This document shows positions 3,863-29,557 of a stretch of DNA of 64,000 nucleotides, piece by piece (position 1 is the stretch's first letter; each line of letters starts with the position of its first letter). Source of the stretch: Burkholderia sp. BCC0506 (GTDB lineage: Bacteria > Pseudomonadota > Gammaproteobacteria > Burkholderiales > Burkholderiaceae); NCBI RefSeq assembly GCF_902833145.1, contig NZ_CADFEN010000008.1, positions 1 to 64,000 of the forward strand, in the 5' to 3' direction. Made by a program: the position numbers and the translations under genes. A model generated the notes under the pieces. That model searched no databases and was not told the origin of the DNA. It was given only the letters and a program-made list of their open reading frames with translations.

Positions 3863-3881
3863 TCCCGTAAAAGCTCACCTT
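3863..3881 (-). repeat. isolated Rep iteron copy (outlier 1)
   Basis: TCCCGTAAAAGCTCACCTT is the reverse complement of the origin iteron (consensus GGTGAG-N2-TTTTCGGGA) and closely matches the copy at 14556. It lies between the convergent 3' ends of argC and the following LysR gene, about 10.7 kb from the main array. Confidence 0.6.
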
Positions 3882-3890
3882 TAGCCGGTT

Positions 3891-4814
3891 TCAGCCCGTA
3901 TCGTCACCGGCCGCGGCGTTCAGGCCGGCGAGCGTCTCCACCAGAAAATCCACACATACGCGCACCTTCGCCGACGCCGCGACGCGTTCCGGATACACGG
4001 CCCAGATGTTCGCGGGCTGGATCGCGTCCGGCAGCACGCGGCACAACGCGCCGCGCTCGATCAGCGGCCCGGCTTCCCAGATCGAGCGCAGCACGATCCC
4101 GCGTCCGGCCAGCGCCCATTGCACGGCCACCTCGCCGTGGTTCGTCGACAGCGCGCCGCCGACCTTCACCGTGACCGTTTCGCCGCGCACGTTCAGCCGC
4201 CATACGCCGAACGGATGATCGCGCTCCTTGATCGCGAGACAGTCGTGTGAGGCCAGATCCGCGAGCGAGCGCGGCGTGCCGCGGCGCGCGAGATAGTCGG
4301 GCGACGCGCACAGCACACGATGGTTCGCGGCGAGGCGGCGTGCGATCAGGTGATCGGCGATCTCGTCGCCGATGCGCACGTCGAGGTCGTAGCCTTCGCC
4401 GGCCACGTCGACGAGCCGGTCGAACAGATCGAGCCGCACGTTCAGCTGCGGATAGCGCGCGCTGAAGTCGAGCAGCGCCGGCGCGATGACGTGCCGGCCG
4501 AAGCCGAAGCTGCTCGACATGCGCAGCGTGCCGCGCGGCACCGTGCGCGTGGTCGACACGTCCTCGACGAGATGATCGACGTCGTCGAGAATCTTCTCGG
4601 CGCGCGCGAGCACGCGTTCGCCGGCCTCGGTGACCGTCATGCGGCGGGTCGAGCGATGCAGCAGGCGCGTACCGAGCTGCGCTTCCAGCATCGCGATGCG
4701 CTTGCTGACATACGCGGGCGACACCGCAAGCTGCTCGGCGGCCGCGCTGAAGCTCGCGAGGCGGACGACCAGGCTGAACACGCGCAGGTCGTCGAGGTTC
4801 GGCGATTTGTTCAC
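3891..4814 (-). CDS. LysR-family regulator, DmlR-like
   Basis: A 307-aa LysR-type regulator. The HTH covers about residues 5-62 (NLDDLRVFSLVVRLASFSAAAEQLAVSPAYVSKRI), followed by an effector domain with the typical VRIG and SPDYLARRGTP segments. I chose the GTG at 4814 because it places the HTH at the normal distance from the N terminus; the longer open frame to 4931 would run across the dmlA promoter. It is divergent from a D-malate/tartrate dehydrogenase gene and belongs to the group that includes DmlR, the activator of dmlA in E. coli, so that gene is the likely target. Confidence 0.82.
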   Translation of the reverse strand: MNKSPNLDDLRVFSLVVRLASFSAAAEQLAVSPAYVSKRIAMLEAQLGTRLLHRSTRRMTVTEAGERVLARAEKILDDVDHLVEDVSTTRTVPRGTLRMSSSFGFGRHVIAPALLDFSARYPQLNVRLDLFDRLVDVAGEGYDLDVRIGDEIADHLIARRLAANHRVLCASPDYLARRGTPRSLADLASHDCLAIKERDHPFGVWRLNVRGETVTVKVGGALSTNHGEVAVQWALAGRGIVLRSIWEAGPLIERGALCRVLPDAIQPANIWAVYPERVAASAKVRVCVDFLVETLAGLNAAAGDDTG

Positions 4815-4829
4815 GATTCGTGGAAAGTC

Positions 4830-4854
4830 GATTAACTTTTGCGTGATTTTAATC
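4830..4854. promoter_or_regulatory. probable LysR operator upstream of dmlA
   Basis: GATTAA (4830-4835) and TTAATC (4849-4854) form a perfect 6-bp inverted repeat with a 13-bp spacer. Within it lies an ATTAA-N15-TTAAT core, close to the A/T-flanked dyad that LysR proteins bind. It sits in the 115-bp divergent promoter, 76-100 nt before the dmlA ATG, in an AT-rich patch unlike its surroundings. Confidence 0.5.
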
Positions 4855-4929
4855 CGGATGGAAATAAATAGAATGACGTGACGGGCCGCTGCCTTCCCGG
4901 CAACCGGCCGACCAGCCAAGGAGATTTGC

Positions 4930-6015
4930 ATGACCGACAGGACTTACAGGATTGCCGTGATCCCCGGCGACGGCATCGGCCGCGAAGTGATGCCCGAGGG
5001 CCTGCGCGTGCTCGCCGCCGTGACCGCGCGCTTCGGCGTGCGCTTCGACTTCGTCGAGATCGACTGGGCGAGCTGCGACTACTACGCGCAGCACGGCAAG
5101 ATGATGCCGGACGACTGGAAGGCGCAACTGTCGGGCGTGGACGCGATCCTGTTCGGCGCGGTCGGCTGGCCGGCGACGGTGCCCGATCACATTTCGCTGT
5201 GGGGCTCGCTGCTGAAATTCCGCCGCGAATTCGACCAGTACATCAACCTGCGGCCCGCACGCCTGTTCGACGGCGTGCCGTCGCCGCTCGCCGGCCGCCG
5301 CGCGGGCGACATCGATTTCATGATCGTGCGCGAGAACACCGAGGGCGAATATTCGTCGGTCGGCGGCACGATGTTTGAAGGCACCGAGCGCGAAGTCGTG
5401 ATGCAGCAGGCGATCTTCACGCGGCACGGCACCGAGCGCGTGCTGAAATTCGCGTTCGAGCTCGCGCAGCGGCGCGCGAAGCGCGTCACCGTCGCGACCA
5501 AAAGCAACGGCATCGCGATCAGCATGCCGTGGTGGGATGCACGCGCGGCCGAAATGGCCGAACGCTATCCGGAGATCGCGGTCGACAAGCAGCACATCGA
5601 CATCCTGTGCGCGCGCTTCGTGCTGCAGCCGGACCGCTTCGACGTCGTCGTCGCGTCGAACCTGTTCGGCGACATCCTGTCGGATCTCGGGCCAGCCTGT
5701 ACGGGCACGATCGGCATCGCGCCGTCGGCGAACCTGAACCCCGACCGCACGTTCCCGTCGCTGTTCGAACCCGTGCATGGTTCGGCGCCCGATATCGCGG
5801 GGCAATACATCGCGAATCCGGTCGCGATGATCTGGTCGGCGGCGATGATGCTCGACTTCCTCGGCAACGGCACGGGCTGCGAACGCGACGCGCACGATGC
5901 GATCGTCGCCGCGATCGAGGACGTGCTGCGCACGGGGCCGCGTACGCGCGATCTCGGCGGCCACGCCGGCACGCAGGAAGTGGGCGAGGCGATCGCCGCG
6001 CGGATTGCAGGCTGA
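4930..6015 (+). CDS. dmlA: D-malate/tartrate dehydrogenase (isocitrate/isopropylmalate dehydrogenase family)
   Basis: A 361-aa beta-decarboxylating dehydrogenase. It has IAVIPGDGIGREVMPEG at the N terminus, VRENTEGEYSSVGG in the middle, and the C-terminal nucleotide loop FEPVHGSAPDIAG with the Asp-Ile-Ala sequence of NAD-dependent members. The DWASCDYY and LKFRREFDQYINLRPARLF segments mark the tartrate dehydrogenase/decarboxylase (TtuC) and D-malate dehydrogenase (DmlA) subgroup rather than LeuB. Expected reaction: oxidative decarboxylation of D-malate to pyruvate, often with activity on tartrate. AGGAG precedes the ATG at 4930. The divergent LysR gene and the dyad at 4830 suggest substrate-induced expression. 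Confidence 0.85.
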   Translation: MTDRTYRIAVIPGDGIGREVMPEGLRVLAAVTARFGVRFDFVEIDWASCDYYAQHGKMMPDDWKAQLSGVDAILFGAVGWPATVPDHISLWGSLLKFRREFDQYINLRPARLFDGVPSPLAGRRAGDIDFMIVRENTEGEYSSVGGTMFEGTEREVVMQQAIFTRHGTERVLKFAFELAQRRAKRVTVATKSNGIAISMPWWDARAAEMAERYPEIAVDKQHIDILCARFVLQPDRFDVVVASNLFGDILSDLGPACTGTIGIAPSANLNPDRTFPSLFEPVHGSAPDIAGQYIANPVAMIWSAAMMLDFLGNGTGCERDAHDAIVAAIEDVLRTGPRTRDLGGHAGTQEVGEAIAARIAG

Positions 6016-6386
6016 GCGTTGACAGTCGTGCCCGGCGCGCGCGCCGGGCCGCGCGTCGTGAGTCGGCGGTGAGCGGCACGCGATGCGGTTGCGCACTCGT
6101 GCAGGCTCGAGCGATGCATTGGCGGTGAAGTCGAGCGGTGAGCAACGACACATCGCCACGCGCACTGTTCGCGAGGTTTTCGTAGAACGCGAAATCGATG
6201 CGATCGGTGAGTGGCACGTCACGCTCGCACACACCGAAGATCAATGCACGGTCGCTTCGACGCAATCGGTGAGATGCATTACGCGGCGAAACACACCGCT
6301 GCATGTCCAGAGATGCGCTGCTCCACCGGACGCCATGCCGCGTCGAACCGTTCGCAGCACACAGTTCGACGCGACATTTCACCTGG

Positions 6387-6405
6387 TCCCGAAAAATCTC
6401 ACCTT
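6387..6405 (-). repeat. isolated Rep iteron copy (outlier 2)
   Basis: TCCCGAAAAATCTCACCTT is the reverse complement of AAGGTGAGATTTTTCGGGA, a match to the iteron consensus at every defined position. It is 30 bp from a second, weaker copy in the same orientation, in an intergenic region about 8 kb from the main array. Confidence 0.75.
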
Positions 6406-6416
6406 CAGCGAACGGC

Positions 6417-6435
6417 TCCCGAATTTCCTCACCGT
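6417..6435 (-). repeat. isolated Rep iteron copy (outlier 3)
   Basis: TCCCGAATTTCCTCACCGT keeps both conserved ends of the iteron (TCCCGA and CTCACC) with a changed T-run. It is paired with the copy at 6387 and has the same orientation. Confidence 0.5.
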
Positions 6436-6479
6436 TGCATCCCGACGATGCGTTCGCCGGTCCGTTGAACGCTCGCGCA

Positions 6480-6959
6480 TTACAGCCCGAGGTCGGACAG
6501 CCCCGGATGATCGTCCGGACGGCGCCCGAGCGGCCAGTGATAAAGACGGTCCGCCTCGCGAATCGGCAGATCGTTGATGCTCGCGTGACGATGCGCCATC
6601 AGGCCGTTTTCGTCGAACTCCCAGTTCTCGTTGCCGTACGAACGGAACCAGTTGCCCGCATCGTCATGCCACTCGTACGCAAAGCGCACCGCGATGCGAT
6701 TGCCGCCGAACGCCCACAGCTCCTTGATCAGCCGGTAGTTGAGTTCGCGCGTCCACTTCCGCTGCAGCAGGCCGACGATCTCGTCGCGGCCCGTCACGAA
6801 TTCCGCGCGATTGCGCCAGCGGCTTTGCGGCGTATAGGCGAGCGACACACGCTGCGGGTCGCGCGTGTTCCACGCGTCCTCGGCGGCGCGCACTTTCTGG
6901 CGCGCGGTGTCGAGCGTGAAGGGCGGCACGGGCGGACGAACTTCGGGGGAAGCGGACAT
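6480..6959 (-). CDS. DUF1348 / NTF2-like protein
   Basis: A 159-aa protein of the DUF1348 group within the NTF2-like (SnoaL) fold. Characteristic segments are [57 protein letters not shown] and [14 protein letters not shown]. The ATG at 6959 has AGGAG 6 nt upstream. There is no signal peptide. The TetR gene starts 64 nt beyond this gene's upstream side and points the same way (tetR ends at 7024), so the two may form one operon. The function of the family is not established. Confidence 0.85.
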
Positions 6960-7023
6960 GGGTTGCTCCTGTTCAGGGTTCTGGCCGCGAACGCACGCGG
7001 CCGGTTCGGTTTCGCTGCGTCGG

Positions 7024-7629
7024 CTACCGCGATACGGTATCGAGCAGCAGTTCAGCCGTCGCGCGCGCATCGCGCGCGGCGTTTGCATCGCCGCTGACGA
7101 GCGCCACGCCGATCGCGCCGTCGATCAACACGAGCCACTGGCGCGCGATGCGTGCAAGCCCGCGGCGCTCGATGCCCGTTTCGTCGGCATGGGCGTCGAA
7201 GCGCTCGCGCACGAAAGCCAGCAGGCGTGCCTTGTGCATGCGGGCGACGACGCGCACGGGATCGTCGGCGTCGGGTATCTCGCCCGACGCATTCAGGAAC
7301 GCGCAGCCGTGAAAGTCGGGCTGCCCGAACCAGTCGCGCAGCACGTCGAACATGCCGAGCAGGTGCGCACGCGGTGACTTGCCGCGCGCCAGCGTGCCGT
7401 CGACGAACCAGCGCATCCAGCGCGCGTCGCGCCGTTCGAGCGCGGCGACCACCAGCGCTTCTTTCGATTCGAAATGCGAATAAAAGCTCTTGCGCGCCGC
7501 GCCGGATCGCTTGACGATCGCATCGACGCCGGTCGCATGTATACCGCCCGAATAGATCAGCGCTTCGGCGGCGTCGAGCAGCCGGTCGCGAACGCCCGGT
7601 TCGCCGGAGGAGTCGAGAGGTGTGTTCAT
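7024..7629 (-). CDS. TetR-family transcriptional regulator
   Basis: A 201-aa TetR-type repressor. The N-terminal HTH (residues about 12-60) reads [46 protein letters not shown], with the recognition helix and the YxHFxSKExL signature. The C-terminal domain ([25 protein letters not shown]) resembles TetR_C regulators of small detoxification genes. A 12-bp palindrome lies 13 nt before the start, suggesting autoregulation. The DUF1348 gene follows on the same strand and is the most likely co-regulated partner. Confidence 0.88.
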
Positions 7630-7641
7630 GGGTTTACGGTA

Positions 7642-7653
7642 GAACGATCGTTC
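7642..7653. promoter_or_regulatory. probable TetR operator
   Basis: GAACGATCGTTC is a perfect 12-bp palindrome directly upstream of the tetR ATG, extended imperfectly by ACGGTA on one side and CACCGT on the other. Its placement over the expected promoter suits binding by the TetR product. Confidence 0.6.
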
Positions 7654-8133
7654 TCCACCGTCAATACCCGGATGAAAAGGCCCTGCCGGCGGGAAGGCTG
7701 AATCGTGCCCGACGCGCGGCGTCGTCCTGCCGAGCCTTCAGCTCGATTCGCGCGGATTGAATGGTGAACGGGTCAAGTAACGGGATGCGCACCGATCCAG
7801 GCCGGTCGATGTCGATTGCATCGCATATCAGTGAGTCGCACGCCGCGTTGCGGCTCACGGTTGATGATCCGGTTCGGCGCGATCTCGCATACGGTGGCGT
7901 GCGAGCGCTCGCCCGCCGGGCGAAGCAGGGAAGTGCGTGGAAGAGGCGAAACGGGCGCCAACCGGCGCGACGGAGAGAAGCGAAGCGGCTGCCGACAGGT
8001 GAAGTGAACGTGCATTTGCAGGTCACCGATGCGGGATCGTGTGGCGACTCGGCGCCCCGACACAGCTCCCGAATAATCTCACCTCAAGCACTGCATCGCG
8101 CGTTCTCCCACGCGCGACGGTGCGCGCGCAAAC
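7654..8133. other. gene-free stretch between tetR and tdh
   Basis: About 480 bp with no ORF that looks like a real gene. Possible frames on both strands are Arg-rich shadows. It contains one isolated iteron copy (8067-8085) and ends at the tdh terminator hairpin. Confidence 0.5.
8067..8085 (-). repeat. isolated Rep iteron copy (outlier 4)
   Basis: TCCCGAATAATCTCACCTC matches the reverse complement of the iteron, with both conserved ends intact and one substitution in the A/T run. It stands alone in an intergenic region about 6.5 kb left of the main array. Confidence 0.65.
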
Positions 8134-8172
8134 GAAAACGGGGCAGGCGGCGAACGTGCCGCGCTGCCCCGT
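8134..8172 (-). terminator. terminator of kbl-tdh
   Basis: On the minus strand ACGGGGCAG pairs with CTGCCCCGT, with an inner GCGGC/GCCGC pairing, and the hairpin is followed by TTTTCGTTT. It lies just past the tdh stop codon. Confidence 0.7.
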
Positions 8173-8189
8173 CTCGACATGCGCTCGAC

Positions 8190-9218
8190 TCAGACCGTCC
8201 AATCGAGAATCACCTTGCCGCTTTCGCCGGACAGCATCGCGGCGAACCCTTTCTCGTAATCGTCGGCCGCGAAGCGATGCGTGATGATCGGCGACAGGTC
8301 GAGGCCGCTCTGCAACATCGCGACCATCTTGTACCAGGTCTCGAACATCTCGCGGCCGTAGATGCCCTTGATCTCGAGCCCCTTGAAGATCACCTGGTTC
8401 CAGTCGATCGCCGTCTGCGCGGGCGGGATGCCGAGCAGCGCGACCTTGCCGCCGTGATTCATCGCCTCGAGCAGGCTCGTGAACGCACTCGGCACGCCGG
8501 ACATCTCGAGACCGACGTCGAAGCCTTCGGTCATGTGCAGGTCGGCCATCACGTCGCGCAGCGACTCGCGTGCGACGTTGACCGCGCGCGTCGCACCCAT
8601 CTTGCGTGCGAGTTCCAGCCGATAGTCGTTGATGTCGGTGATGACGACGTTGCGCGCGCCGACGTGCTTCGCGATCGCGACGGCCATGATGCCGATCGGG
8701 CCGGCGCCAGTGATCAGCACGTCTTCGCCGACGAGGTTGAACGACAGTGCGGTGTGCGTCGCGTTGCCGAACGGATCGAAGATCGACGCGAGATCGTCGG
8801 AAATCTCCGGCGGAATCTTGAACGCGTTGAACGCCGGAATCGCGAGGTATTCGGCGAACGCGCCTTCGCGGTTCACGCCGACGCCCACCGTGTTGCGGCA
8901 CAGATGCCGGCGCCCGGCGCGACAGTTGCGGCAGAAACCGCACGTGATGTGGCCTTCGCCGGACACGCGATCGCCGATCGCGAAGCCGCGCACTTCCTGC
9001 CCCATCTCGACGATCTCGCCGACGTATTCGTGGCCGACGTGCATCGGCACCGGAATCGTCTTCTGCGCCCAGTCGTCCCACTTCCAGATATGGATGTCGG
9101 TGCCGCAGATCGCCGTGCGGCGGATCTTGATCAGCACGTCGTTGTGGCCGACTTCGGGACGCTTCACGCGCGTGAGCGTGAGGCCGGGGCCGCGTTCGAG
9201 CTTTGCCAGTGCTTTCAT
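8190..9218 (-). CDS. tdh: L-threonine 3-dehydrogenase
   Basis: A 342-aa zinc medium-chain dehydrogenase that oxidises L-threonine to 2-amino-3-ketobutyrate. The catalytic zinc site is in [17 protein letters not shown], the GHEYVGEI motif follows, and the structural zinc site is the four-cysteine loop [15 protein letters not shown]. The NAD-binding segment is [28 protein letters not shown]. Length and motifs match E. coli Tdh closely. GGAGG precedes the ATG at 9218, only 13 nt after kbl ends, so the genes form an operon in which Kbl uses the unstable Tdh product. Confidence 0.96.
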
Positions 9219-9231
9219 GGTCGCGCCTCCG

Positions 9232-10431
<1,200 letters not shown>

Positions 10432-10536
10432 CGCAAAGCTCCTGACAGGGATTCGCATTCCGCAGCGCACCGCTCGTGGCGGCGCAACGGCCTGCTACTG
10501 TTATAGTCGGTCGTTCGGTTGACCGCATTTATCCGA

Positions 10537-10560
10537 TATTCCGAACTAGAATTCGAAATA
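10537..10560. promoter_or_regulatory. probable operator between kbl and the XRE-cupin regulator
   Basis: Half sites TATTCCGAA and TTCGAAATA form an inverted repeat with one mismatch and a 6-bp centre, in an AT-rich patch of the divergent promoter, 30-53 nt before the regulator's ATG. A further CCGAAC copy follows at 10561. The XRE-cupin protein is the likely ligand. Confidence 0.5.
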
Positions 10561-10589
10561 CCGAACAACTCTAAGCGAACGGAATCCAA

Positions 10590-11201
10590 ATGGCAAGTTC
10601 CTCCGGATCGCGGCGCACGCGTGCCGACGCCGCCCCGCAGCCGCCGGCCGCGACCCCGCCGCGCGTGGGCGAGCAGATCCAGCGGCTGCGCAACGAGCGC
10701 AAGCTGACGCTCGACGACCTGTCGCGCGCAGCCGGCGTATCGAAATCGATGCTCTCCGAAATCGAACGCGACAAGGCCAACCCGACGATCGCCGTCGCGT
10801 GGCGGCTGACGAACGCGCTGGGCATCACGCTCGACGAACTGTTCTCGCAGCCGAAGGCGCCCGAGACGATCCGCGTGGACGGCCCGCACGACATTCCGAC
10901 GCTCGCCGGCCACGACGGTCGGTACCAGCTGCGCGTATGGGGCCCCATCGACCTTGCCGGCAAGTTCGAGTGGTACGAGCTGACGCTGCCGGGCGGCGGC
11001 GCACTGGTGTCGAACGCGCATGAGCCGGGCACGCGCGAGCACCTGACCGTGCTGCAGGGCGCGATGGAAATCGAAGCCGCCGCGGCCAGCCGACGCCTGA
11101 AGACGGGCGACACCGCGCGCTACCCGGCCGACGAGCCGCACGCGATCCGCAATCCCGGCAAGGCCGAAGCCCGCGCCTTGCTGATCGTGATCCACCGCTG
11201 A
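10590..11201 (+). CDS. XRE-family regulator with C-terminal cupin domain
   Basis: A 203-aa protein. After a disordered Ala/Pro tail comes a Cro/CI-type HTH (residues about 28-85: QIQRLRNERKLTLDDLSRAAGVSKSMLSEIERDKANPTI), and then a small cupin barrel with the HEPGTREHLTVLQG and YPADEPHAIRNPG motifs that would bind a small ligand. This architecture is common for regulators of amino-acid degradation genes. Being divergent from kbl-tdh, it probably controls threonine breakdown and itself. Confidence 0.88.
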   Translation: MASSSGSRRTRADAAPQPPAATPPRVGEQIQRLRNERKLTLDDLSRAAGVSKSMLSEIERDKANPTIAVAWRLTNALGITLDELFSQPKAPETIRVDGPHDIPTLAGHDGRYQLRVWGPIDLAGKFEWYELTLPGGGALVSNAHEPGTREHLTVLQGAMEIEAAAASRRLKTGDTARYPADEPHAIRNPGKAEARALLIVIHR

Positions 11202-11250
11202 CGGCGCGGATAGTCGGCCAAAAGGTCAAGCGCAGGCCTGTTGCGGAAAA

Positions 11251-11270
11251 TACTGTATGTTTGTACAGTA
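11251..11270. promoter_or_regulatory. LexA (SOS) box
   Basis: TACTGTATGTTTGTACAGTA has perfect 7-bp arms (TACTGTA/TACAGTA) and the CTGT-N8-ACAG core of the proteobacterial LexA operator; the E. coli consensus is TACTGTATATATATACAGTA. It lies 73 nt before the ATG at 11343, over the likely promoter. Confidence 0.75.
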
Positions 11271-11342
11271 TACGGACATTCCGCCATGCACGGGCCGGAG
11301 CCGGCGCACCGAGGCGCCCGCTCCGGTCGACAGGAGCCTGCA

Positions 11343-11720
11343 ATGACAGAAGAACAAGATTTGGCCGCGCTCAGCTTCAAGGCTGCCGCGCATGACCTCG
11401 AATTGATCGTTCGCCATATCGCCGGGCGCTATATCCGTCAGCGCGTGCCGCTGACGTGGCGCCTGCTGCACGCGATCGAGGCCGAAGCGCTCGCCGATCT
11501 CGGCTTTGCGAGCCGGCACGACGCCGGCATGCGTCAACTGTTCGAACGGCCGTCGGACATGACGTTTCCCGAGACCGACGATCCGATCGACTTCGGGCGC
11601 TCGAATGCGCTGCCCGCGGTCTTTTCGTTCGCCGTTCTCGCGTACGAAGCCGCGGCAACGGCGCACGACGCCGCGCGTCCTGCGCGCGCTCACCGCCAGT
11701 CCAAGGCGTGGGGCGACTGA
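11343..11720 (+). CDS. small protein of unknown function behind a LexA box
   Basis: A 125-aa protein (MTEEQDLAALSFKAAAHDLELIV...) with AGGAG 7 nt before the ATG at 11343. It is largely helical by composition, has no signal peptide or membrane span, and ends in a His/Arg-rich tail. I do not recognise a domain. The near-consensus LexA box upstream predicts induction by DNA damage. It lies between the threonine regulator and the recombinase-like gene at the left edge of the replication locus, so a role in replication or division control under stress is conceivable but unproven. Confidence 0.7.
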   Translation: MTEEQDLAALSFKAAAHDLELIVRHIAGRYIRQRVPLTWRLLHAIEAEALADLGFASRHDAGMRQLFERPSDMTFPETDDPIDFGRSNALPAVFSFAVLAYEAAATAHDAARPARAHRQSKAWGD

Positions 11721-11822
11721 TGGCCCAGCCCCGGCCGCGACGCACAGCGGCCGGTTCACCCGCTTGCTGCCCGATACGTTGCGGAAAGGGCTACCATATA
11801 CGCAACTAACGGAATTAACACC

Positions 11823-12842
11823 ATGTCCCTTCCCGCCGCTCCCGATACCGCCGCACCTCCGGAAGAAAAGGATCTGTTCGACCGCGATGCGTCCGACTGG
11901 GTCGCATCGCCCGAAGCCGCGTTCGACGCGTGGCTCGCCATGCAGGACTATCGCCGCTCGTCGGCCGACGTCTATCGCGCGCAATGGGGTGCGTTTCTCG
12001 CGTGGATGCGCGCGCATCAAAAGAATCTGGCGACGGTCGACACGCCGACCATCGCGAACTTCGTCGGCGAGTTGCCGATCAAGAAAACGCAAAGAATGCG
12101 CTATCTCCGGCTGATCGAACGTGTGCTCGACCACATCCGGCGGACCGAGTACGCGTCGACCAATCCGGCCCGCTTCATTGCTCAGGATGGCGAAGCGAAC
12201 TGGCGCAAGGCCCGCGACAACGAACCGACCGGTTTCCTCACGCCGGCGGAACGCGCGACGTTGCTCGCCTATCTGTTTTCGCCGATCGGCGTATCGGGTG
12301 CCGCGTACTGGAAGGAGCGCCGCGACCGCGCGCTCGTCGCGGCGTTTCTCGGTGCCGGCATCAAAACCGGCGAAGCCCGCACACTTACGATTAGTTGCAT
12401 CAATACCAGCAACACGTCACTGCTGATCGAATCGACGCATCCGGATTATTCGCGCGAAACCCATCTGGCCTCGTTCGCGATCGCATTGCTCGAGGCGTGG
12501 CTGACCGAACGCAAGCGCCAGGAGATTCCGGGCGAGCTGGTTTTCCCCGCATCGCATGCCGGGCGGCCGATGCACAAGGCGACGATGCTGCGCGCGATCG
12601 ACGCGATCGTCGAATCGGCCGGGCTCACGTCGTCGCGTACCGCGCGCGCAAGCCCGCAGACATTGCGCAATACCTACGCGGCCGAGCTGTTCGAGCACGA
12701 CGTGCCGCCCGAGCGGGTCGGCAAATGGCTGGGCTTCATGCGGCCGATCTCGTCGAATCGCCTGCATCGCGCATGGAAAAACTGGCGCGACGGGCTGGCC
12801 GACAGCAACGGTGACGCGCACGACCGCGACGAAACTCACTGA
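11823..12842 (+). CDS. tyrosine-recombinase-fold protein lacking catalytic residues
   Basis: A 339-aa intact ORF with the two-domain layout of phage integrases/XerCD: an N-terminal SAM-like core-binding domain (about residues 28-110) and a C-terminal catalytic-fold domain (about 138-320). Aligned by motif, the catalytic set is mostly gone. The box I Arg is Lys181 (GAGIKTGEARTL), the His of HxLRH is Gln279 (SPQTLRNTYA), Arg282 is kept, the LGH His is Phe305 (WLGFMRP), and the nucleophilic Tyr position is Leu314. Strand cleavage therefore looks impossible, although DNA binding may remain. There is no phage or island context; instead it sits beside the replication origin. It may be an architectural or regulatory DNA-binding protein of the origin. 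Confidence 0.82.
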   Translation: MSLPAAPDTAAPPEEKDLFDRDASDWVASPEAAFDAWLAMQDYRRSSADVYRAQWGAFLAWMRAHQKNLATVDTPTIANFVGELPIKKTQRMRYLRLIERVLDHIRRTEYASTNPARFIAQDGEANWRKARDNEPTGFLTPAERATLLAYLFSPIGVSGAAYWKERRDRALVAAFLGAGIKTGEARTLTISCINTSNTSLLIESTHPDYSRETHLASFAIALLEAWLTERKRQEIPGELVFPASHAGRPMHKATMLRAIDAIVESAGLTSSRTARASPQTLRNTYAAELFEHDVPPERVGKWLGFMRPISSNRLHRAWKNWRDGLADSNGDAHDRDETH

Positions 12843-12913
12843 TCGGAAAACGGCTGCTCACGCGAAGCGACCCGTGAGCAGCCTTGTGTGGCGCACCCTC
12901 ACCGTTTCACAGA

Positions 12914-12932
12914 TCCCGAAAAACCTCACCTC
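12914..12932 (-). repeat. isolated Rep iteron copy (outlier 5)
   Basis: TCCCGAAAAACCTCACCTC is the reverse complement of GAGGTGAGGTTTTTCGGGA, a full iteron match, between the convergent 3' ends of the recombinase-like and KfrA-like genes. Confidence 0.75.
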
Positions 12933-12937
12933 AAGCT

Positions 12938-12955
12938 TCCCGGATCATCTCACCT
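12938..12955 (-). repeat. isolated Rep iteron copy (outlier 6)
   Basis: TCCCGGATCATCTCACCT keeps the conserved ends of the iteron and is 24 bp from the copy at 12914, in the same orientation. Confidence 0.55.
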
Positions 12956-12978
12956 GTGCGGCGCGGCCGACCTCCGGG

Positions 12979-14160
12979 TCAGGTATGCGCAAAACGCGCG
13001 ACGGCTTCAAAGCGGGACGGCCACGCGCCGGAAGCATGCTCGCACTCGGGGCACGCGACCTCGAACCCCTCGTCGCCATGTGACAGTTCCGGTTCGCCAT
13101 CGCAATGCGGGCACCGGGTCGGCGCCGGCGTCTCGTGATCCAGCGAGGTACCGATCGCGGTATACGCGTCAGCATCGAGCTGTCCCGCCTCGGCCAGGCG
13201 CCGGAGCAGCGCGGCGATGTCCGGATTCATCCCGCGGTTCGCGCGCAACGTATTCACGTCGCGCGTGGCGCGGTCCAGTTCGTCGCTCTGGGCACGCAAC
13301 TGCTCTTCGAGCCGGTCGGCGCGCGCCTTGGCCGAACTCAATTGCTGCAGGAAATCGAATTCCTTGCGCTGGACGTCGCGCAACCCGCTCTGGTAGGTCG
13401 ACGCCATGCTGCGCAACGAGTCCAGTTCGACCAGCATCGGCTTGACGCGGCGTTCGGCTTCGGCCACTGCATCCTTGATTTGCTGTGCGTAGTGCTCGGT
13501 GCGTTGCTGCAATTCGGCTTGCAGCGCATCGATGCGATCGCGCAGCGCGGCGTTATGTGCCTGCTCGGCATCGATGCGGCCGGCGGCCGCGGCCAGCTCC
13601 TTTTCCAGTCGGGCGACTGTGGTGAGCAACGTTGCTTCGCTTGCCGAACCGTGCGTCGATTGCGACGCGAGCTGAACCTCGAGTTCGGTTATCCGCGCCT
13701 GCAATTGCTCGTTTCTCGCTTCGCCGCGCGCGAGCGCGCCTTCAAGCGTTTCCTGGCGAACGGCGGCGTCACGCAACCGTTGTTCGGCGGCGGCCACGTC
13801 GGCGCGAACCTGCTCGCGATCGCCATCGAGGCTATCGCGCGCCGCTTTCAATGCCTCTTCATACAGCGCGCCGAGCAATGCGCCGGCCTTTTCCTCGACG
13901 GCTTTCGGGATCGCCGCGCCGTCGAGCCGGATCTTGGAGGCTGAACGGATGCGCTCCCAGAAATGGTCGATATCTTTCGGGATGTCGCTGGCGCTGCCGG
14001 TCTGGGTGAGATCGCGGACGTTGGCGGCCGACGGCCGGATGCCGAGATCGAAGAACAAACGCTTGCACGCATGCAGCGACAATTCCTGGCGCCGTGCACC
14101 GCTGGCGCGCAGCGATTCCAGTTCTTCCCGAATGACTTGACGCATTTCGTCCAGGGTCAT
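12979..14160 (-). CDS. KfrA-like coiled-coil DNA-binding protein with C-terminal zinc ribbon
   Basis: A 393-aa protein. Residues about 3-120 form a KfrA-type N-terminal DNA-binding domain (plasmid replication region protein). Residues about 125-320 are a long, Ala/Glu/Gln/Arg-rich coiled coil with heptad character (QETLEGALARGEARNEQL...). The C terminus has CPHC and CPEC pairs 17 residues apart (TRCPHCDGEPELSHGDEGFEVACPEC), a likely zinc ribbon that I do not recall from plasmid KfrA proteins. The ATG at 14160 is where DNA-binding homology begins; the longer frame to 14316 is AT-rich leader. KfrA of broad-host-range plasmids is an autorepressor that aids stability and segregation, and the place next to the origin suggests a similar job here. 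Confidence 0.78.
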   Translation of the reverse strand: MTLDEMRQVIREELESLRASGARRQELSLHACKRLFFDLGIRPSAANVRDLTQTGSASDIPKDIDHFWERIRSASKIRLDGAAIPKAVEEKAGALLGALYEEALKAARDSLDGDREQVRADVAAAEQRLRDAAVRQETLEGALARGEARNEQLQARITELEVQLASQSTHGSASEATLLTTVARLEKELAAAAGRIDAEQAHNAALRDRIDALQAELQQRTEHYAQQIKDAVAEAERRVKPMLVELDSLRSMASTYQSGLRDVQRKEFDFLQQLSSAKARADRLEEQLRAQSDELDRATRDVNTLRANRGMNPDIAALLRRLAEAGQLDADAYTAIGTSLDHETPAPTRCPHCDGEPELSHGDEGFEVACPECEHASGAWPSRFEAVARFAHT

Positions 14161-14437
14161 GACCACACTCACAGACAATGAAATGTGTCGATCATAACGA
14201 AATACGTATTCATTGATACTTCTTTCGAGGGTCCGTTGTGAATTTACGTCGTTTTGCACAGAAACGGCTCCGTGCGCACAGTCCTGTCGAAGCTGAGCTG
14301 GAATTCCGTGAAACAAAGCGAAGAAAGTCAGCCAAGTCCTTGTCTCGCAAGCATTTTTTAGCGGACCCCGAATTTCGTCATTTGTTTCACATGACCACGG
14401 ATCCGGTTGCCGGTGGGTGTTCAGGGGTCGGGGTGTC

Positions 14438-14515: not shown

Positions 14516-14555
14516 CACGGCACAGCCTTACGCAGCAAGGCTTTCCGGCCGATGA

Positions 14556-14704
14556 GGTGAAGTTTTACGGGAGCCAAGGTGATCTTCTGCGGGAGCTGAC
14601 GTGATGGGGTTCAGGGAGCTGCGTGAGCCGTTGCAGGAAAGGTCGTGAGCGGATTCGGGATCACAGTGAAACACGAGTTTTTCCAAAGGTGAGGATTTTC
14701 GGGG
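14556..14704 (+). repeat. phased iteron block, 22-bp period
   Basis: Copies of the GGTGAG-N2-TTTTCGGGA motif, several degenerate, begin at 14556, 14578, 14600, 14622 and 14644, exactly 22 bp apart. A very poor copy lies near 14665 and a good one at 14688 (44 bp after 14644). The spacing is close to two helical turns, so bound Rep would line up on one face of the DNA. The first two and the last are the best matches; the middle ones keep GTGA and GGGA/AGGA. Confidence 0.8.
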
Positions 14705-14765
14705 CCACACAGCCATGGAACCCGCGCTGTGCCTGACGGCACAGTTTTCTGCCTGTACAGACATA

Positions 14766-15491
14766 GGTGAGAATTTGCAGGACCTCGTTCGTGGCCCGAT
14801 TCTGCCCATCTTTTGGGCAGATTTGGCGAAAGGTGAGGTTTCACGGGACTCCAAGGGAATTTGCTGTGAGGATTTCCGGGAACCGACCGCCATTTTGCAC
14901 AGCAAACGTGCGTTCCGGCGCCTGTGATGCCCCAAAGGTGAGGCTTTTCGGGAGGGAAATCCGGGTTTTCGAGCGCCGTCCTTCTTCAGGTGAGCTTTTT
15001 CGGGGCATGGATCACAGACTGTATGCTGGCTTAAAGGTGAGATTTTCCGGGAGGCATATTTGCTGAAAAAATGGGCAAAGGTGAGGCTTTTCGGGACCAG
15101 TGACTGGCCGAATGCCCCGAAAAGCCCGCCAGGACTGGAAGAAATCTCATTTTTACTGTGCCACTTTTTGGCACAGGTGAGCGTTTTCGGGGGCTGACGT
15201 ACGGTTGTCGTATGAAGGATTTCCGCCGAAAGGTGAGCCTTTTCGGGGACCCAGGCCGATGCACAGCCAAATGCCTGCGGCGCATAAGTATCGGATGCGA
15301 TTGGGATTTTTGATACCGTGCCGGTTACGGTGAGGTTTTTCGGGAGCGAATTCCGTACCCGCTGCCATGCCGCATTTTTTCGGTAAGGTGAGCATCTTCG
15401 GGAGTCGTTGGCAGTCGGTCCCGCGTGTGTCGGGCGTCCGTCGGCATCCGGACGAATCGACATGCCGTGCCTGAGGTGAGTATTTTCGGGA
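14766..15491 (+). repeat. scattered iterons, irregular spacing
   Basis: Seventeen-bp iterons begin at 14766, 14832, 14865, 14937, 14989, 15036, 15080, 15176, 15232, 15329, 15387 and 15475. Most fit GGTGAGNNTTTTCGGG(A/G), usually preceded by AA. Spacing varies from 33 to 97 bp, and all have the same orientation as the phased block. These are probable additional Rep sites for copy-number control by titration or pairing. A partial inverted copy (CCCCGAAAAGC) is visible at 15115. Confidence 0.85.
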
Positions 15492-15734
15492 CCGGATACG
15501 ATTTGCGCGCTGTACAATGCGCGCCCGGGCTGGCCAAACAGGCCTCGATCGGCGGCGCATACCGGTTTCGACGGCGCTTTTCGACGTATCGAAACCGAAT
15601 CGATCGCACCGGGAAGCCTCGCCTGTACATGCATACAGGCCAACGTGCGGCAGCCGGGCGGGTACGGTGAGGTGCAGTCGCGACCCTGTGTCGAACTCAC
15701 GGCTGCGCAGTCGCAAAATTACGACAAATCGAAA
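15492..15734 (+). other. iteron-free segment with hairpins; possible regulatory RNA
   Basis: This segment separates the main iteron field from the last two copies. It has a TACAAT hexamer at 15513 inside a GCGCGC/GCGCGC dyad, an 8-bp stem GGTTTCGA/TCGAAACC (15564-15571 with 15589-15596), and a GCCTGTA-based dyad at 15621-15640. A transcript from the TACAAT promoter could fold at both sites before rep. No coding sense is visible. It could be an antisense or leader RNA or simply structured DNA. Confidence 0.35.
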
Positions 15735-15863
15735 GGTGAGCCGATACGGGAGCCAATCCCGCACGTGTCGTGCACAGGCGAAATTCTGTGAATCGGCGCA
15801 TGCCGCGGCACGTCTGGAAGAGTCCGGAACGCCGGAGTGGCGGACCGGTGAGCGTTTTCGGGA
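15735..15863 (+). repeat. two rep-proximal iterons
   Basis: Iterons at 15735 (GGTGAGCCGATACGGGA, diverged centre) and 15847 (GGTGAGCGTTTTCGGGA, consensus) lie 248 and 136 nt before the rep ATG, in the orientation of the array. A degenerate GGTGAG half follows at 15909. Being so close to rep, they may serve for autorepression by Rep. Confidence 0.7.
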
Positions 15864-15982: not shown

Positions 15983-17350
15983 ATGGCCACGACGAAGCGC
16001 GCCAAGAAAACCGATGTGGATGTGGTGAGTGCCAGTTCAGCCGAATTGCGAAAGGCCGTCGAGGCGATCGCCATTCAGCCGAAGAGCGGCAAGATCACGC
16101 TCCTCACTCGCAAGCTGTTCAATGTCCTGCTGGCCGTCGCGCAGCAGGCCGACGACTCGGGCGATACGTATCGCGCGCTCCTGTCGGACATCGTCGCCAA
16201 CTCCGCTTTCGATTCGAACGACACCGCGCTGGTGAAGGAACACCTGCGCCGCATGGTGTCGGTGCAGGTCGAATGGAGCACGGGGACGTCGAGCCAGAAG
16301 CCGGGCCGCAAGTGGGGGATCTCGACGCTGATCGCGGATGCGGAAATTCTCGAGGATCCGACCACCCGCCGCGTGTGGGTCGAGTTCTCGTTTGCACCGA
16401 AGATCAAGAAGAAGCTGCTCGACCCGGTCCAGTATGCGCGCCTGAGCCTGCAGTTCCAGAGCCAGCTGCGCAGCAGCGCCGGTCTCGCGCTGTACGAGAT
16501 CTGCGTGCGCTATCTGACGAATCCGAGCCACCTGACGATGCGCGAGCCGTGGGAGTGGTGGCGGCCGATCCTGTCGGGCACGCCCGACACGGAAGCCGGC
16601 GACGAAGCGAAGCGCGAGTACAAGTACTTCAAGCGAGACTACCTGCGCCCCGCGATCGCGGAAGTCAACGCGGTCACCAACATCTTCGTCGAGCTGATCG
16701 AGCATCGCGAAGGGCGTCGGGTGGCCGAGATCCAGTTTCGCGTGACCGAGCGCAAGCAGCCGATGCTCGCGCTCGACGAACATCCGAACGTATTCGACAG
16801 CACGCTGGTCGACCGGATGGTGAAGCTCGGGATCCCGCTGAAGGAAGCGCAGACGCTCTATGCGGACAGCGAGGAAAACCGGATTCGCGCGGCGCTGCAG
16901 ATGACCGAACAGCGGATGCGCAGCACGACGCTGCCGCCGGTGCGCAGCGCGCCGGCACTGTTCAAGGATGCGCTGAAGAAGGGGTATGCGCCGCCGGTGG
17001 AATCGGTCGACGCGCTGCCTGCCGGCACGCCGTCCGCGAAGGTCACGGCCGCGCAGCCGGACGATCTGAAGGCCCGCCTGCTGAGCGAGTTCGCCGCGTT
17101 CCGCCGCAAGGAAGCGAAGGTACTGTACGAAGAGCAGGGCGACGCGGAGCGCGAAGTGGCGCGCGAGTCGTTCGAGTCCGAGGCGCTGCCGACGATGGGC
17201 TCGCATCTGCGTGACGACTGGCGCAAGCGCGGCCTCGATTCCAAGCTGGCCGAGACGGCCTTTTTCGACTGGTTGGCCCAGAAGACCTGGGGCGAGCCGA
17301 CAGACGGCGATCTGCTGTCGTTCACGCTGAACCAGTCGCGGGCCGCGTGA
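15983..17350 (+). CDS. replication initiator protein, Rep_3 superfamily
   Basis: A 455-aa initiator of the plasmid RepB/Rep_3 winged-helix superfamily. After a basic N terminus (MATTKRAKKTDVD) come two winged-helix regions. The first contains KITLLTRKLFNVLLAVAQQ and the second SLQFQSQLRSSAGLALYEICVRYL, then EWWRPILSG...EYKYFKRDYLRPAIAEVNAVTNIFVE, the classic Rep_3 second domain. A C-terminal extension of about 150 residues includes a helical segment rich in Glu and Arg. It should bind the upstream iterons and open the origin. No strong ribosome site is visible before the ATG, suggesting low translation. It is convergent with parB. Commonly called repA in second chromosomes of this genus. Confidence 0.9.
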   Translation: MATTKRAKKTDVDVVSASSAELRKAVEAIAIQPKSGKITLLTRKLFNVLLAVAQQADDSGDTYRALLSDIVANSAFDSNDTALVKEHLRRMVSVQVEWSTGTSSQKPGRKWGISTLIADAEILEDPTTRRVWVEFSFAPKIKKKLLDPVQYARLSLQFQSQLRSSAGLALYEICVRYLTNPSHLTMREPWEWWRPILSGTPDTEAGDEAKREYKYFKRDYLRPAIAEVNAVTNIFVELIEHREGRRVAEIQFRVTERKQPMLALDEHPNVFDSTLVDRMVKLGIPLKEAQTLYADSEENRIRAALQMTEQRMRSTTLPPVRSAPALFKDALKKGYAPPVESVDALPAGTPSAKVTAAQPDDLKARLLSEFAAFRRKEAKVLYEEQGDAEREVARESFESEALPTMGSHLRDDWRKRGLDSKLAETAFFDWLAQKTWGEPTDGDLLSFTLNQSRAA

Positions 17351-17443: not shown

Positions 17444-18505
17444 TCACTCCGACAACAGCATGCGCTCGAGCTGCTCGAGGATCGCGTCGCGCTTGTCCTT
17501 CGGGAGGCCGCGCAGGCGCAGTTCGATGCGGTCTTCGCCATACGACTTCAGGTCGCCGACCGACTTGCCGCCGAGCTTGATCTCGAGACGCTGCGCATAG
17601 CGCTGACGGCCCGCCGCCTTCGGCGTCTCCTGCGCCGCGACGCGGCCCTTGACGATGTCCGACACCTGGCGCGTGCTGAGATCGTCCGACACGATCTTGT
17701 TGATCAATCGCAGCGTCGCCTCGGTGCCGCGCGCATTGTGATAACGGCCGACCTGATACGCCATGTTCGATCCGAAGCGATCGGGGCGCGCCACCATTTC
17801 CTGCATGATCGCTTCCGGCAGCTTGCCGATCGACAGCGCGACGGCCACCGTCGACTCATCGAGGCCGAGATGCTCGGAGAGTTCTTTCTGGCTCTGGAAA
17901 TGCTTCTCGTCGAGGAAGCGGCGCCATACGACGGCGTTGTCGAATACCGTCTGCGAATCGCGCTGAACGTTGAGATCGTAGCCGAGCTTGTAGCTCTGGA
18001 TGCCGATGGGCACGTCGATCACGATCGCCTTGACCGACTCCTTGTTCGCCTCCTTCAGCGCCCGCACGCGGCGGCCACCATCGCTGACGAAATACGTGCC
18101 CGGGTTGTCGTAATCCGGAATTACGTGGATCGCCTGCTGTTGCCCCTGCTTCGCCAGGTTGACCGCGAGTTCGGCAATCGACGATTTCAGATAGAAGTGC
18201 CGCGGGTTGAACGGGCTGTGCTTGATCGCCTTCAGCGGCAGCTCGATCACTTGCCCGGGCGCATAGCGATTCTCGAGACGCCACGCGCGATATTGCGGCG
18301 ATTCGTCGACCGACGGATCGATCGTGAATTCCGGCGCTGGCGGCGGGGCGATGTCCTTCTTCGCGGATTTGGTCGACACCGGGGTAGGTGTCTCGGACTT
18401 GACGATGCCATCGATCGCATTGAGCCGATCAAGCGCCGTGCGCTTTTCGCTCGTCGTGATATCCGGGCGCGCTTGGAATCCTTTGGCGAATTGGGAGGGT
18501 TTCAT
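17444..18505 (-). CDS. parB: ParB partition protein
   Basis: A 353-aa ParB. A disordered N-terminal part precedes the ParB/Srx CTP-binding domain (about residues 85-190: VIELPLKAIKHSPFNPRHFY, then VSDGGRRVRALKEAN, where GGRR replaces the usual GERR). The central HTH DNA-binding domain (HFQSQKELSEHLGLDESTVAVALSIGKLPEAI) recognises parS, and the C terminus is a basic dimerisation region. The ATG at 18505 uses an AAGGAG Shine-Dalgarno whose first bases belong to the parS site at 18513-18528. It follows parA by 23 nt in one operon. It should bind the parS array right of parA and load onto DNA for segregation. Confidence 0.93.
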   Translation of the reverse strand: MKPSQFAKGFQARPDITTSEKRTALDRLNAIDGIVKSETPTPVSTKSAKKDIAPPPAPEFTIDPSVDESPQYRAWRLENRYAPGQVIELPLKAIKHSPFNPRHFYLKSSIAELAVNLAKQGQQQAIHVIPDYDNPGTYFVSDGGRRVRALKEANKESVKAIVIDVPIGIQSYKLGYDLNVQRDSQTVFDNAVVWRRFLDEKHFQSQKELSEHLGLDESTVAVALSIGKLPEAIMQEMVARPDRFGSNMAYQVGRYHNARGTEATLRLINKIVSDDLSTRQVSDIVKGRVAAQETPKAAGRQRYAQRLEIKLGGKSVGDLKSYGEDRIELRLRGLPKDKRDAILEQLERMLLSE

Positions 18506-18512
18506 GTGACTC

Positions 18513-18528
18513 CTTTATGCGCATAAAG
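18513..18528. promoter_or_regulatory. parS site in the parA-parB gap
   Basis: CTTTATGCGCATAAAG is a perfect 16-bp palindrome with the same TTTATGCGCATAAA core as the sites right of parA. On the minus strand its end supplies AAAG of the AAAGGAG ribosome site of parB, so ParB bound here would cover its own translation start region. Confidence 0.85.
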
Positions 18529-19191
18529 TCAGGGCAGCATGGCGACGATTTCGTCGGCACATGCGCGAATTTCGGCGGCGGCCAGCTTGCCGCCCCGGTC
18601 GTTCATCTGCAGCACGGTCTGACCGAGCGCCATCGCTTGCTTGTACGCTTCCCGAGTCGGAATCTGCGTCTTCAGCAGCGGGAAGCCGAGTTCCTCGAGC
18701 GCACGCTTGAGCTCGCGGGTCAGCATGCGCTTCTCTTCGGTCTTGTTCAGCAGGAACACCGCGCGCAGATCTTCGTTCATCACCTGCGCCTGCTGAATCA
18801 GTTTGACCAGCCCGACGCTCGACCAGTAATCGGCCGGTGACGACGATGTCGGGATCACGGCAATCGATGCGGCCAGCAGGACGACGCCGGAAACTTTCTC
18901 GGTGATCGACGGCGGGCAATCCACGACGATGATGTCGTAGTCGTTGATGAACTTCTTGATCTCGCGATGGATCTGGCCGTCGGCTTCGGCAAGGTTGACG
19001 ACCGGAAACGGGATGCCGTTGTCGCTGTCGCCGGACGCGCTCGACCAGTGAACCAGCGTGTTTTGACGGTCTGCGTCGATGACGAGGACGCGCTTCCCTT
19101 TTTCATGGAACGCGGCGCCGAGATGCATGGCAATCGTGCTTTTGCCGACGCCACCTTTTTGTTGAGTGACTGCAATGATTTCCGCGGCCAA
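18529..19191 (-). CDS. parA: ParA partition ATPase
   Basis: A 220-aa deviant-Walker ATPase: KGGVGKST at residues 12-19 (Walker A'), VLVIDADRQ (A'), IIVVDCPPS (Walker B). The short length without an N-terminal HTH places it with the small plasmid ParA/Soj class, so autoregulation must come from another protein, perhaps ParB at the parS in the operon. The start is a TTG at 19191 with AGGAG 7 nt upstream; no ATG or GTG gives the family N terminus. A good promoter lies just upstream at 19218-19245. Confidence 0.92.
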   Translation of the reverse strand: MAAEIIAVTQQKGGVGKSTIAMHLGAAFHEKGKRVLVIDADRQNTLVHWSSASGDSDNGIPFPVVNLAEADGQIHREIKKFINDYDIIVVDCPPSITEKVSGVVLLAASIAVIPTSSSPADYWSSVGLVKLIQQAQVMNEDLRAVFLLNKTEEKRMLTRELKRALEELGFPLLKTQIPTREAYKQAMALGQTVLQMNDRGGKLAAAEIRACADEIVAMLP

Positions 19192-28564: not shown

Positions 28565-28696
28565 TTCGCCCAATTCCGGCTTCCGGCCGGTAATTTGTGC
28601 CTGTCTGCGTCGATCGTTCGCATATCTCGCACGCATCGACGCCCTGACCATCCCAGCCGGGCATGGCTTCTTCAATCGCCCCGCGTGGGTGTCTCC

Positions 28697-29557
28697 GTGG
28701 AGCTCGTCTTGGCCGTTTCCCCTTCCGTCGTGGACGAACAAGAAACCGACGCCGCTGCCGTCACATCGGGCAGTTCCTTCTATCTGGCGATGCGCATCCT
28801 GCCAGCCGTGCAGCGCGATGCGATGTTCCAGGTCTACGCGTTTTGCCGCGCGGTCGACGACATCGCCGACAGCGACCTGCCGCGCGCCGAGCGCAACGCG
28901 GGCCTCGATCGCTGGCGCGCGGACATCGACGCGTGCTTCGCCGGCCGCCCGCCGCGCCACCTGGCCGCGCTCGATCGCGAGATCCGCGCGTTCAATCTGC
29001 AGCGCGACGATTTCCACGCGATGATCGACGGGATGGCGATGGACGCGGCGGAAGACATCTGCGCGCCCGACGAGCCGACGCTCGACCTCTTCTGCGACCG
29101 CGTGGCGAGCGCCGCGGGCCGGCTGTCGGTGAGGATTTTCGGGATGCCGGAAGCCGAAGGGATCACGCTGTCGCACCACCTCGGCCGCGCGCTGCAATTG
29201 ACGAACATCCTGCGCGACATCGACGACGACGCGGCGATCAACCGGTGCTACCTGCCGCGCGAGCTGCTCGCGCGCGAAGGCATCGCGATCACCGATCCGG
29301 CGACGATCGTGCGCGATCCGGCGCTGCCGCGCGTGTGCGCGACGCTCGTCGAGCGCGCGCTCGAGCACTTCCGCCAGGCCGACGCGGTGATGGATACCTG
29401 CCCGCGTGCGCAGGTGAAGGCGCCGCGCATCATGTCGGGCGCGTATCGCTGCATTCTCGACGCCGCGATCGCACGCGGCTTTGCCGCGCCGCGCGCGCCG
29501 CTGCGCAAGCCGAAGGCGCGCATGCTGATGATCGCCGCGCGCTACGCGCTGTTCTGA
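28697..29557 (+). CDS. hpnD: presqualene diphosphate synthase
   Basis: A 286-aa trans-isoprenyl diphosphate synthase of the squalene/phytoene synthase family. SSFYLAMRILPAVQRDAMFQVYAFCRAVDDIADSD is the HpnD signature and carries the first Asp-rich motif; the second is LTNILRDIDDDAAINRCYLP. HpnC, by contrast, would show a different N-terminal block. It joins two farnesyl diphosphates to presqualene diphosphate. The start is not certain: GTG at 28697 gives VELVLAVSPSV, but GTGs at 28685 and 28730 are also possible, and no ribosome site decides. First gene of hpnD-hpnE-shc-hpnG. Confidence 0.9.
   Translation: MELVLAVSPSVVDEQETDAAAVTSGSSFYLAMRILPAVQRDAMFQVYAFCRAVDDIADSDLPRAERNAGLDRWRADIDACFAGRPPRHLAALDREIRAFNLQRDDFHAMIDGMAMDAAEDICAPDEPTLDLFCDRVASAAGRLSVRIFGMPEAEGITLSHHLGRALQLTNILRDIDDDAAINRCYLPRELLAREGIAITDPATIVRDPALPRVCATLVERALEHFRQADAVMDTCPRAQVKAPRIMSGAYRCILDAAIARGFAAPRAPLRKPKARMLMIAARYALF

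Follow-up and report, generated by a model that had tools for sequence, protein, structure and literature searches.

Dispersed chromosome-2-type iterons in Burkholderia: candidate sites of Rep titration or handcuffing, with a possible link to the chromosome 3 origin

The coordination of origins in split bacterial genomes has been worked out in part for Vibrio. The genome of Burkholderia sp. BCC0506 raises a related question: why do iterons of the chromosome 2 origin also occur well outside that origin, between genes and in inverted orientation? The window (the whole 64,000-nucleotide stretch analysed here) is the start of contig C8 in a genome of 7.29 Mb and 45 contigs, and its chromosome 2 origin is plasmid-type. 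A sequence-only reading had interpreted six outlying iterons to the left of this origin as remote Rep-binding sites for titration, handcuffing or timing. We find that the six belong to a larger conserved set. On the left arm it comprises loci S1 to S5 and on the right arm R1; a distal locus and a pair of sites in the chromosome 3 origin complete it, and pair spacings are mostly fixed. On balance we favour the view that these are dispersed Rep sites that would titrate or handcuff Rep after initiation, those at chromosome 3 possibly letting the chromosome 2 initiator influence chromosome 3.

The origin itself has the features of a Rep_3 replicon. The chromosome 2 initiator gene rep (15983..17350, + strand) encodes a Rep_3 family protein with both winged-helix domains (Pfam Rep3_N, 3.5e-12; Rep3_C, 7.7e-10), which over the best segment is 99-100% identical to the Rep of several B. 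cepacia complex species. Direct repeats lie beside it: 17 same-strand matrix matches of at least 15 bits form an irregularly spaced iteron array (14554..15863, + strand) with the consensus AAGGTGAGNNTTTTCGGGA. The 19-position weight matrix was built only from 15 origin iterons. The consensus is the reverse complement of the iteron ctCCCGAAAAacCTCACCTtt given for c2 of B. cenocepacia (Du et al., 2016; PMC4948915), and our assumption that Rep binds the origin repeats is taken from that published annotation.

The matrix recovered all six outliers reported by the sequence-only reading (3863, 6387, 6417, 8067, 12914 and 12938), and all six are on the - strand, opposite to the + strand origin array. 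They form four loci. S1 (12914..12956; 30.3 and 18.5 bits) is a pair of iterons with a 24-bp spacing, flanked by an integrase gene and a kfrA-like gene that converge on it, S2 (8067..8085; 26.2 bits) is a single iteron between tandem genes, S3 (6387..6435; 32.7 and 19.6 bits) is a pair 30 bp apart between converging genes, and S4 (3863..3881; 31.6 bits) is a single iteron, again between converging genes. Two full matches had been claimed, and the sites at 6387 and 12914 are indeed full core matches. The described placement was also borne out. Codon composition and Pfam matches put six of six sites between genes, and five of them (three of the four loci) lie at convergent gene ends, 8067 being the exception. 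The kfrA-like gene beside 12914 was missed by the composition-based gene caller and is supported by Pfam.

Chance had been considered a poor explanation for these copies, and comparison with shuffled windows excludes it for the strong ones. Outside the origin, the window holds 7 matches of at least 18 bits, compared with 0.033 per shuffled window (2 matches in total over 60 dinucleotide shuffles). A whole-genome pattern scan allowing one mismatch returned 27 matches against 0 for the reversed control: 11 in the origin, four of the six outliers, one at 29126, six in a distal part of C8, two each on contigs C1 and C2, and one on C7. With two mismatches allowed there were 65 matches against 17 in the control, so that score alone does not separate weak copies from chance matches; we relied on them only where conservation backs them. 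A whole-genome scan with a sequence-only model, which scored 150 of 1059 candidates, placed its 30 best matches, and 40 of the 41 listed, on C8, C2 or C1; the 15 origin iterons behind the model are among these matches by construction. We assign these contigs to chromosomes 2 and 3, and the equal density everywhere that would have spoken against the sequence-only reading is thus not seen. Initiator-type sites outside the origin exceed chance, as at remote titration loci. We considered a mobile repeat as a source of the outliers and thought it unlikely: mean flank identity among them is 0.31 and the maximum 0.47, and overlap between a pair and its own flank inflates the top values. Among minor matches, C7:297016 scores 18.2 bits, and C8:135097 (14.1 bits) and C1:695069 (13.9 bits) have E values of about 0.5.

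The assignment of the other contigs is by comparison. On the evidence of site order, which agrees with the complete genome of Burkholderia sp. MS389, we take C2 to extend the left arm of chromosome 2. We take C1 to be chromosome 3, because it has a second Rep_3 gene accompanied by a ParB gene of its own; this Rep is 34% identical to the chromosome 2 Rep.

Conservation in related species, which the sequence-only reading had named as a check, favours the sites: they keep their place, orientation and spacing while the flanks diverge. We compared the best 80 of 218 loci around chromosome 2 rep, of which 78 are usable (two end too near rep) and span Burkholderia, Paraburkholderia, Caballeronia and Trinickia. 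An inverted site of at least 18 bits at the position of S1, about 2.9-3.8 kb upstream of rep, is present in 78/78 usable loci, and in 59 of these S1 is a pair (at least 12 bits) exactly 24 bp apart. The majority-base fraction is 0.86 and 0.70 in the two S1 sites and 0.41-0.48 in the flanks. Counterparts of S2 occur near -7.9 kb in related loci (for example L006-L027), counterparts of S3 were also found in related loci, and those of S4 are present in MS389 and B. cenocepacia. By complete-genome comparison, the left arm of sites appears to extend past the window to a pair at C2:1771/1793. Counting sites with no more than one mismatch over about 35 kb of left arm, 14 Burkholderia genomes have 78, of which 77 are inverted.

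Several further sites were noted. In Caballeronia-type loci (L045-L047, L053, L057, L063, L064, L070, L071, L079 and L083), S1 consists of one inverted site, located about 3.0 kb upstream of rep with a weaker + strand site of TGGGTGAGCAAATACGGGA type nearby, and forms no 24-bp pair. Chromosome 2 of MS389 has a 27.3-bit left-arm site (L089:4613-4631) about 118 kb from the origin, beyond the satellites, and no counterpart was noticed in our genome. In P. xenovorans LB400 (G003), six same-strand iterons lie about 20 kb from the origin (C2:23766-25241), five of them within 0.5 kb; other genera may thus have their own nearer cluster.

The sequence-only reading had noticed no copies to the right of rep. 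This does not hold: there is a full core match at 29126 on the + strand, and a distal cluster lies about 142-145 kb to the right. One-sidedness is real within 10 kb of the origin, where 78 of the 80 loci together contain 173 matches (163 inverted) in 624 kb on the left and 2 in 708 kb to the right of rep, and it breaks down beyond that distance at 29126 and the distal cluster. The site at 29126..29144 (+ strand, 26.5 bits), here called R1, is inside a squalene/phytoene synthase-like gene (28685..29557, + strand; Pfam SQS_PSY, 6.7e-66). It occurs in 14/14 Burkholderia genomes in the same orientation as the origin. Since the left-arm sites are inverted, they and R1 both read away from the origin.

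Codon usage suggests that R1 is retained as DNA. The site was present in all 30 orthologs examined, the best 30 of 61 found. Within it, the rare arginine codon AGG is used in 29/30 orthologs, compared with 1 of 928 other arginine codons of the same genes, and the isoleucine codon is ATT or ATA in 28/30 orthologs, compared with 38 of 513 elsewhere; the orthologs are related, and the 30 do not count as independent events. The R1 core is also found at the matching place in five genomes in which the protein is only 79-82% identical. A coincidence of protein motif was considered and is argued against by these codon counts, making it not likely that R1 merely reflects the encoded protein.

The distal locus, about 142-145 kb right of rep, consists of a trio of - strand sites downstream of an H-NS-type gene and, 3 kb beyond it, an array of twelve + strand units with a strict 23-bp period. 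The exact two-unit pattern at 23 bp, with up to one mismatch, was found in 50/61 Burkholderia genomes with 0 control matches, and in 20 of the 23 same-genus genomes in a family sample of 200. Units are 23 bp apart in 235 of 256 cases over 25 arrays. Because units were chosen by ten fixed bases (with no more than two differences) and chained at 22-24 bp, which split some arrays, this spacing figure and the conservation of the half-sites are partly built in. Positions that played no part in choosing units are also conserved: the inner T at 0.93 and the A after CGGG at 0.94, compared with 0.42-0.62 in the spacer.

The trio is present in 25/25 genomes with an array, one member falling below threshold in one genome. 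Among the 11 array-less genomes, five were listed and four compared at the level of locus sequence; in all four the locus is bordered by the same three genes and keeps the trio, and where the array would be there is a pair with a spacing of 22-34 bp. The fifth listed (G065) has only two sites at a comparable distance, judging from the site listing. Flanking genes are the same in the 9 loci compared. Distance from the origin is 108-169 kb with the array (eight genomes and our own) and 169-275 kb without it (four genomes, two of them with the locus on the opposite arm), a set that excludes G046. A locus at moderate distance from the origin, as in titration systems, is therefore conserved, and the distance itself is kept only roughly. 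Given this distance, the locus would be copied fairly early.

We also identified chromosome-2-type sites in the origin of chromosome 3. This origin has its own iterons of GGTANCNNTTTATGGG type, and two chromosome-2-type iterons lie 0.5-0.7 kb further upstream. The pair is present in all three of the chromosome 3 origins of our genome, MS389 and B. cenocepacia. Fifty-one genomes of the genus encode a chromosome-3-type Rep (at least 67% identity), of which 3 had been seen earlier, 40 were examined and 8 left out. In 34 of the 40, chromosome-2-type sites of at least 18 bits are located at about -1.54 to -1.71 kb from chromosome 3 rep. Among 35 aligned cases, 29 show a spacing of 33 bp between the two sites and two have one site only. 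Average conservation in the alignment is 0.84-0.85 for the two sites and 0.49-0.61 around them; one other stretch, near L002:4584, is about equally conserved (0.83). Thus a site of chromosome 2 type is conserved inside a chromosome 3 origin. The reverse arrangement was looked for as well: a search of the chromosome 2 window allowing up to two mismatches turned up no iteron of chromosome 3 type. A second site on chromosome 3, C1:808965 (L003:4965-4983, - strand), is in a tyrosine integrase gene and reaches 18 bits in only 14/30 orthologs examined; it is thus eroding or optional, and we excluded it from the system. Pairs 33-34 bp apart are common to the chromosome 3 origin and to the distal locus of three array-less genomes (L256-L258). 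Distal and chromosome 3 pairs also often have a TTAC-type first site, a hint of one composite element.

The pair could instead serve the chromosome 3 Rep rather than the chromosome 2 Rep. The two proteins are relatives with 34% identity, a GGT...GGGA frame is common to both kinds of iteron, and other species have a few chromosome 3 iterons with an intermediate score of 15.1 bits by the chromosome 2 matrix. We regard this as unlikely, though it is the strongest of the alternatives, as the two matrices separate cleanly in our genome. The 14 chromosome 3 iterons score no more than 8.3 bits by the chromosome 2 matrix, the chromosome 2 origin iterons no more than 8.1 by the chromosome 3 matrix, and the pair itself 20.3-25.7 by the former and no more than 6.9 by the latter. 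Seven such sites from four species likewise score 20-27 bits by the chromosome 2 matrix and no more than 8.7 by the chromosome 3 matrix.

What might these sites do? We consider it very probable that Rep binding at them is under selection, because place, orientation and spacing persist as flanks diverge and R1 retains rare codons. To this extent the sequence-only reading stands: there is strong support for real, selected sites of Rep type, and titration, handcuffing or timing would be their putative function. Its inventory of six was sound but did not extend to the distal array, to R1 or to the copies in the origin of chromosome 3. A net negative effect on chromosome 2 is somewhat favoured. Iteron initiators titrate and handcuff in the plasmids P1, F and R6K. 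Our chromosome 2 has about 24 extra sites (6 on the left arm of the window, R1, 2 on C2, the trio and 12 array units), compared with 17 in the origin. Near sites would double at once after initiation, and the distal locus would double once the fork has travelled 108-275 kb. Extra sites could then take up free Rep and bridge (handcuff) Rep-bound origins, and together these effects would prevent a second start in the same cycle. As they outnumber the origin sites and double soon, we infer that they may damp such a start.

A link to chromosome 3 is more tentative. Chromosome 2 Rep on the chromosome 3 origin could couple chromosome 3 initiation to chromosome 2, most simply if chromosome 3 were held back until newly copied chromosome 2 sites draw Rep off. 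In a more specific form, about which we are more doubtful still, the chromosome 2 initiator would directly gate the origin of chromosome 3 at a conserved composite site, which lies about 1.7 kb upstream of chromosome 3 rep and usually consists of two chromosome-2-type iterons at a 33-bp spacing; replicons would fire in order, and the 23-bp array would be a Rep-clearing timer. Segregation is reported to follow the order c1, c2, c3 on average (Du et al., 2016; PMC4948915), and the proposed restraint of chromosome 3 by chromosome 2 fits that order. Such gating, if true, would be a coupling between two secondary chromosomes.

Several observations weigh against dispersed titration and against the chromosome 3 link. 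First, 19 of 78 loci lack the 24-bp pair form of S1. The 23-bp array was not found in 11 of 61 Burkholderia genomes, and 20 of 177 other-genus genomes in the family sample have one or two pair matches and none has more, so that the array is not essential to this type of Rep. The usual place is without sites in six of the 40 chromosome 3 origins, five having none and the sixth a pair at about -3.0 kb, and some chromosome 3 iterons of other species are intermediate in score. The compared genomes are related, and counts over them are not counts of independent events. Second, c3 segregation is only loosely timed, and c2 foci sometimes double before c1 (PMC4948915), which does not amount to tight coupling. 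Third, isolates of many species grow essentially as before when cured of c3, as cited in the same paper (PMC4948915); the chromosome 3 sites thus cannot be essential to chromosome 2, and any influence would run from 2 to 3 and not back. Finally, handcuffing, titration and a positive action of Rep would look alike at the level of sequence.

Among alternatives to titration or handcuffing, polar fork control is improbable and survives best. Inverted Rep complexes on the left arm would slow or load forks on one arm and make replication asymmetric or partly one-way, in keeping with the single polarity of 77 of 78 left-arm sites and with the asymmetric arm profiles of c2 and c3, for which occasional one-way replication has been suspected (PMC4948915). 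Against this, R1 and the distal array likewise read away from the origin on the right arm, and the distal locus is on the left arm in two genomes; polarity may thus merely follow the replichore. The distal trio, moreover, reads the opposite way. Lower still is the probability that Rep acts as a transcription factor at these sites: the trio is downstream of an H-NS-type gene and divergent genes flank the C2 pair, but three of the four left-arm loci in the window are between converging gene ends, R1 falls within a coding region, and no obvious theme unites the genes next to S1 to S4. Least probable is that the sites are unused scars of an ancestral plasmid origin or of origin duplications, as the plasmid-type Rep and the kfrA-like and integrase genes beside S1 might suggest, since sites, spacing and orientation persist over four genera despite diverged flanks, R1 retains its rare codons, and array positions not used for choosing units are conserved (0.93 and 0.94, compared with 0.42-0.62 in spacers).

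Dispersed Rep sites of this kind have a precedent in Vibrio cholerae, where RctB sites outside ori2 titrate RctB and inhibit chrII (PMC3937223); the analogy with Vibrio chromosome 2 drawn by the sequence-only reading is apt. In both cases, initiator-type sites are outside the origin, on the same secondary chromosome and on an early-copied side (PMC3937223; PMC6090056), and the remote RctB sites have been described as datA-like titration (PMC3937223; PMC6090056). Unlike the Burkholderia sites, Vibrio iterons are of TGATCA type, another motif, and Burkholderia has a regular 23-bp array and near, inverted satellites. The V. cholerae initiator also differs from the chromosome 2 Rep described here.

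The chromosome 3 pair resembles crtS of V. cholerae chromosome 1 in that the site of one replicon's initiator is on another replicon; unlike crtS, which is on the main chromosome, it is in the chromosome 3 origin. We also searched chromosome 1 and found no crtS-like site with the iteron motif common to the complete genomes listed, a search from which a weaker or unlike crtS could escape. With one mismatch allowed, 0 to 4 matches fall on the contig taken as chromosome 1, G046 and G064 having 0, and no conserved site for the secondary initiator was thus detected on the primary chromosome. Another counterpart is incA of plasmid P1, where initiator sites follow one another in tandem at intervals of about two helical turns, outside the minimal origin; it presumably acts by titration and handcuffing. 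The distal array is likewise a tandem array of initiator sites outside the minimal origin; incA lies beside its rep gene, whereas the Burkholderia array is 108-169 kb away.

Part of this arrangement was already known. Du et al. (2016; PMC4948915) mention a second c2 iteron cluster 140 kb from the origin in B. cenocepacia J2315 and other iterons throughout the genome. The J2315 cluster probably corresponds to our distal locus; in B. cenocepacia NCTC13227 the array is 158 kb from the origin. In the passages of that paper available to us, the cluster is only mentioned: neither its structure nor its conservation is given, and there is no description of satellites, of a coding site or of sites in the chromosome 3 origin. 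A search of open-access literature on Burkholderia iterons, with subscription papers outside its scope, found no study of these sites, and we found no description there, within the text accessible to us, of the conservation, the satellites, the coding site, the 23-bp period or the chromosome 3 pair. A 2026 survey (PMC13342612) lists the identification of such timers in further systems as work ahead. Sites at fixed, far places together with copies at chromosome 3 suggest a built-in limit and order for chromosome copying. The candidate parts are small, located to the exact base, shared by many species and open to deletion, which makes this question, including the c1, c2, c3 segregation order (PMC4948915), directly testable in Burkholderia.

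Other features also lie around the chromosome 2 origin. A gene of KfrA_N type (12979..14316, - strand; Pfam KfrA_N, 5.4e-20) lies between S1 and the origin array, and ParB and ParA genes (17444-19191) adjoin rep. Six copies of a parS-like palindrome with a TTTATGCGCATAAA core appear in the repeat listing at 18508-19995, over and upstream of the ParAB genes.

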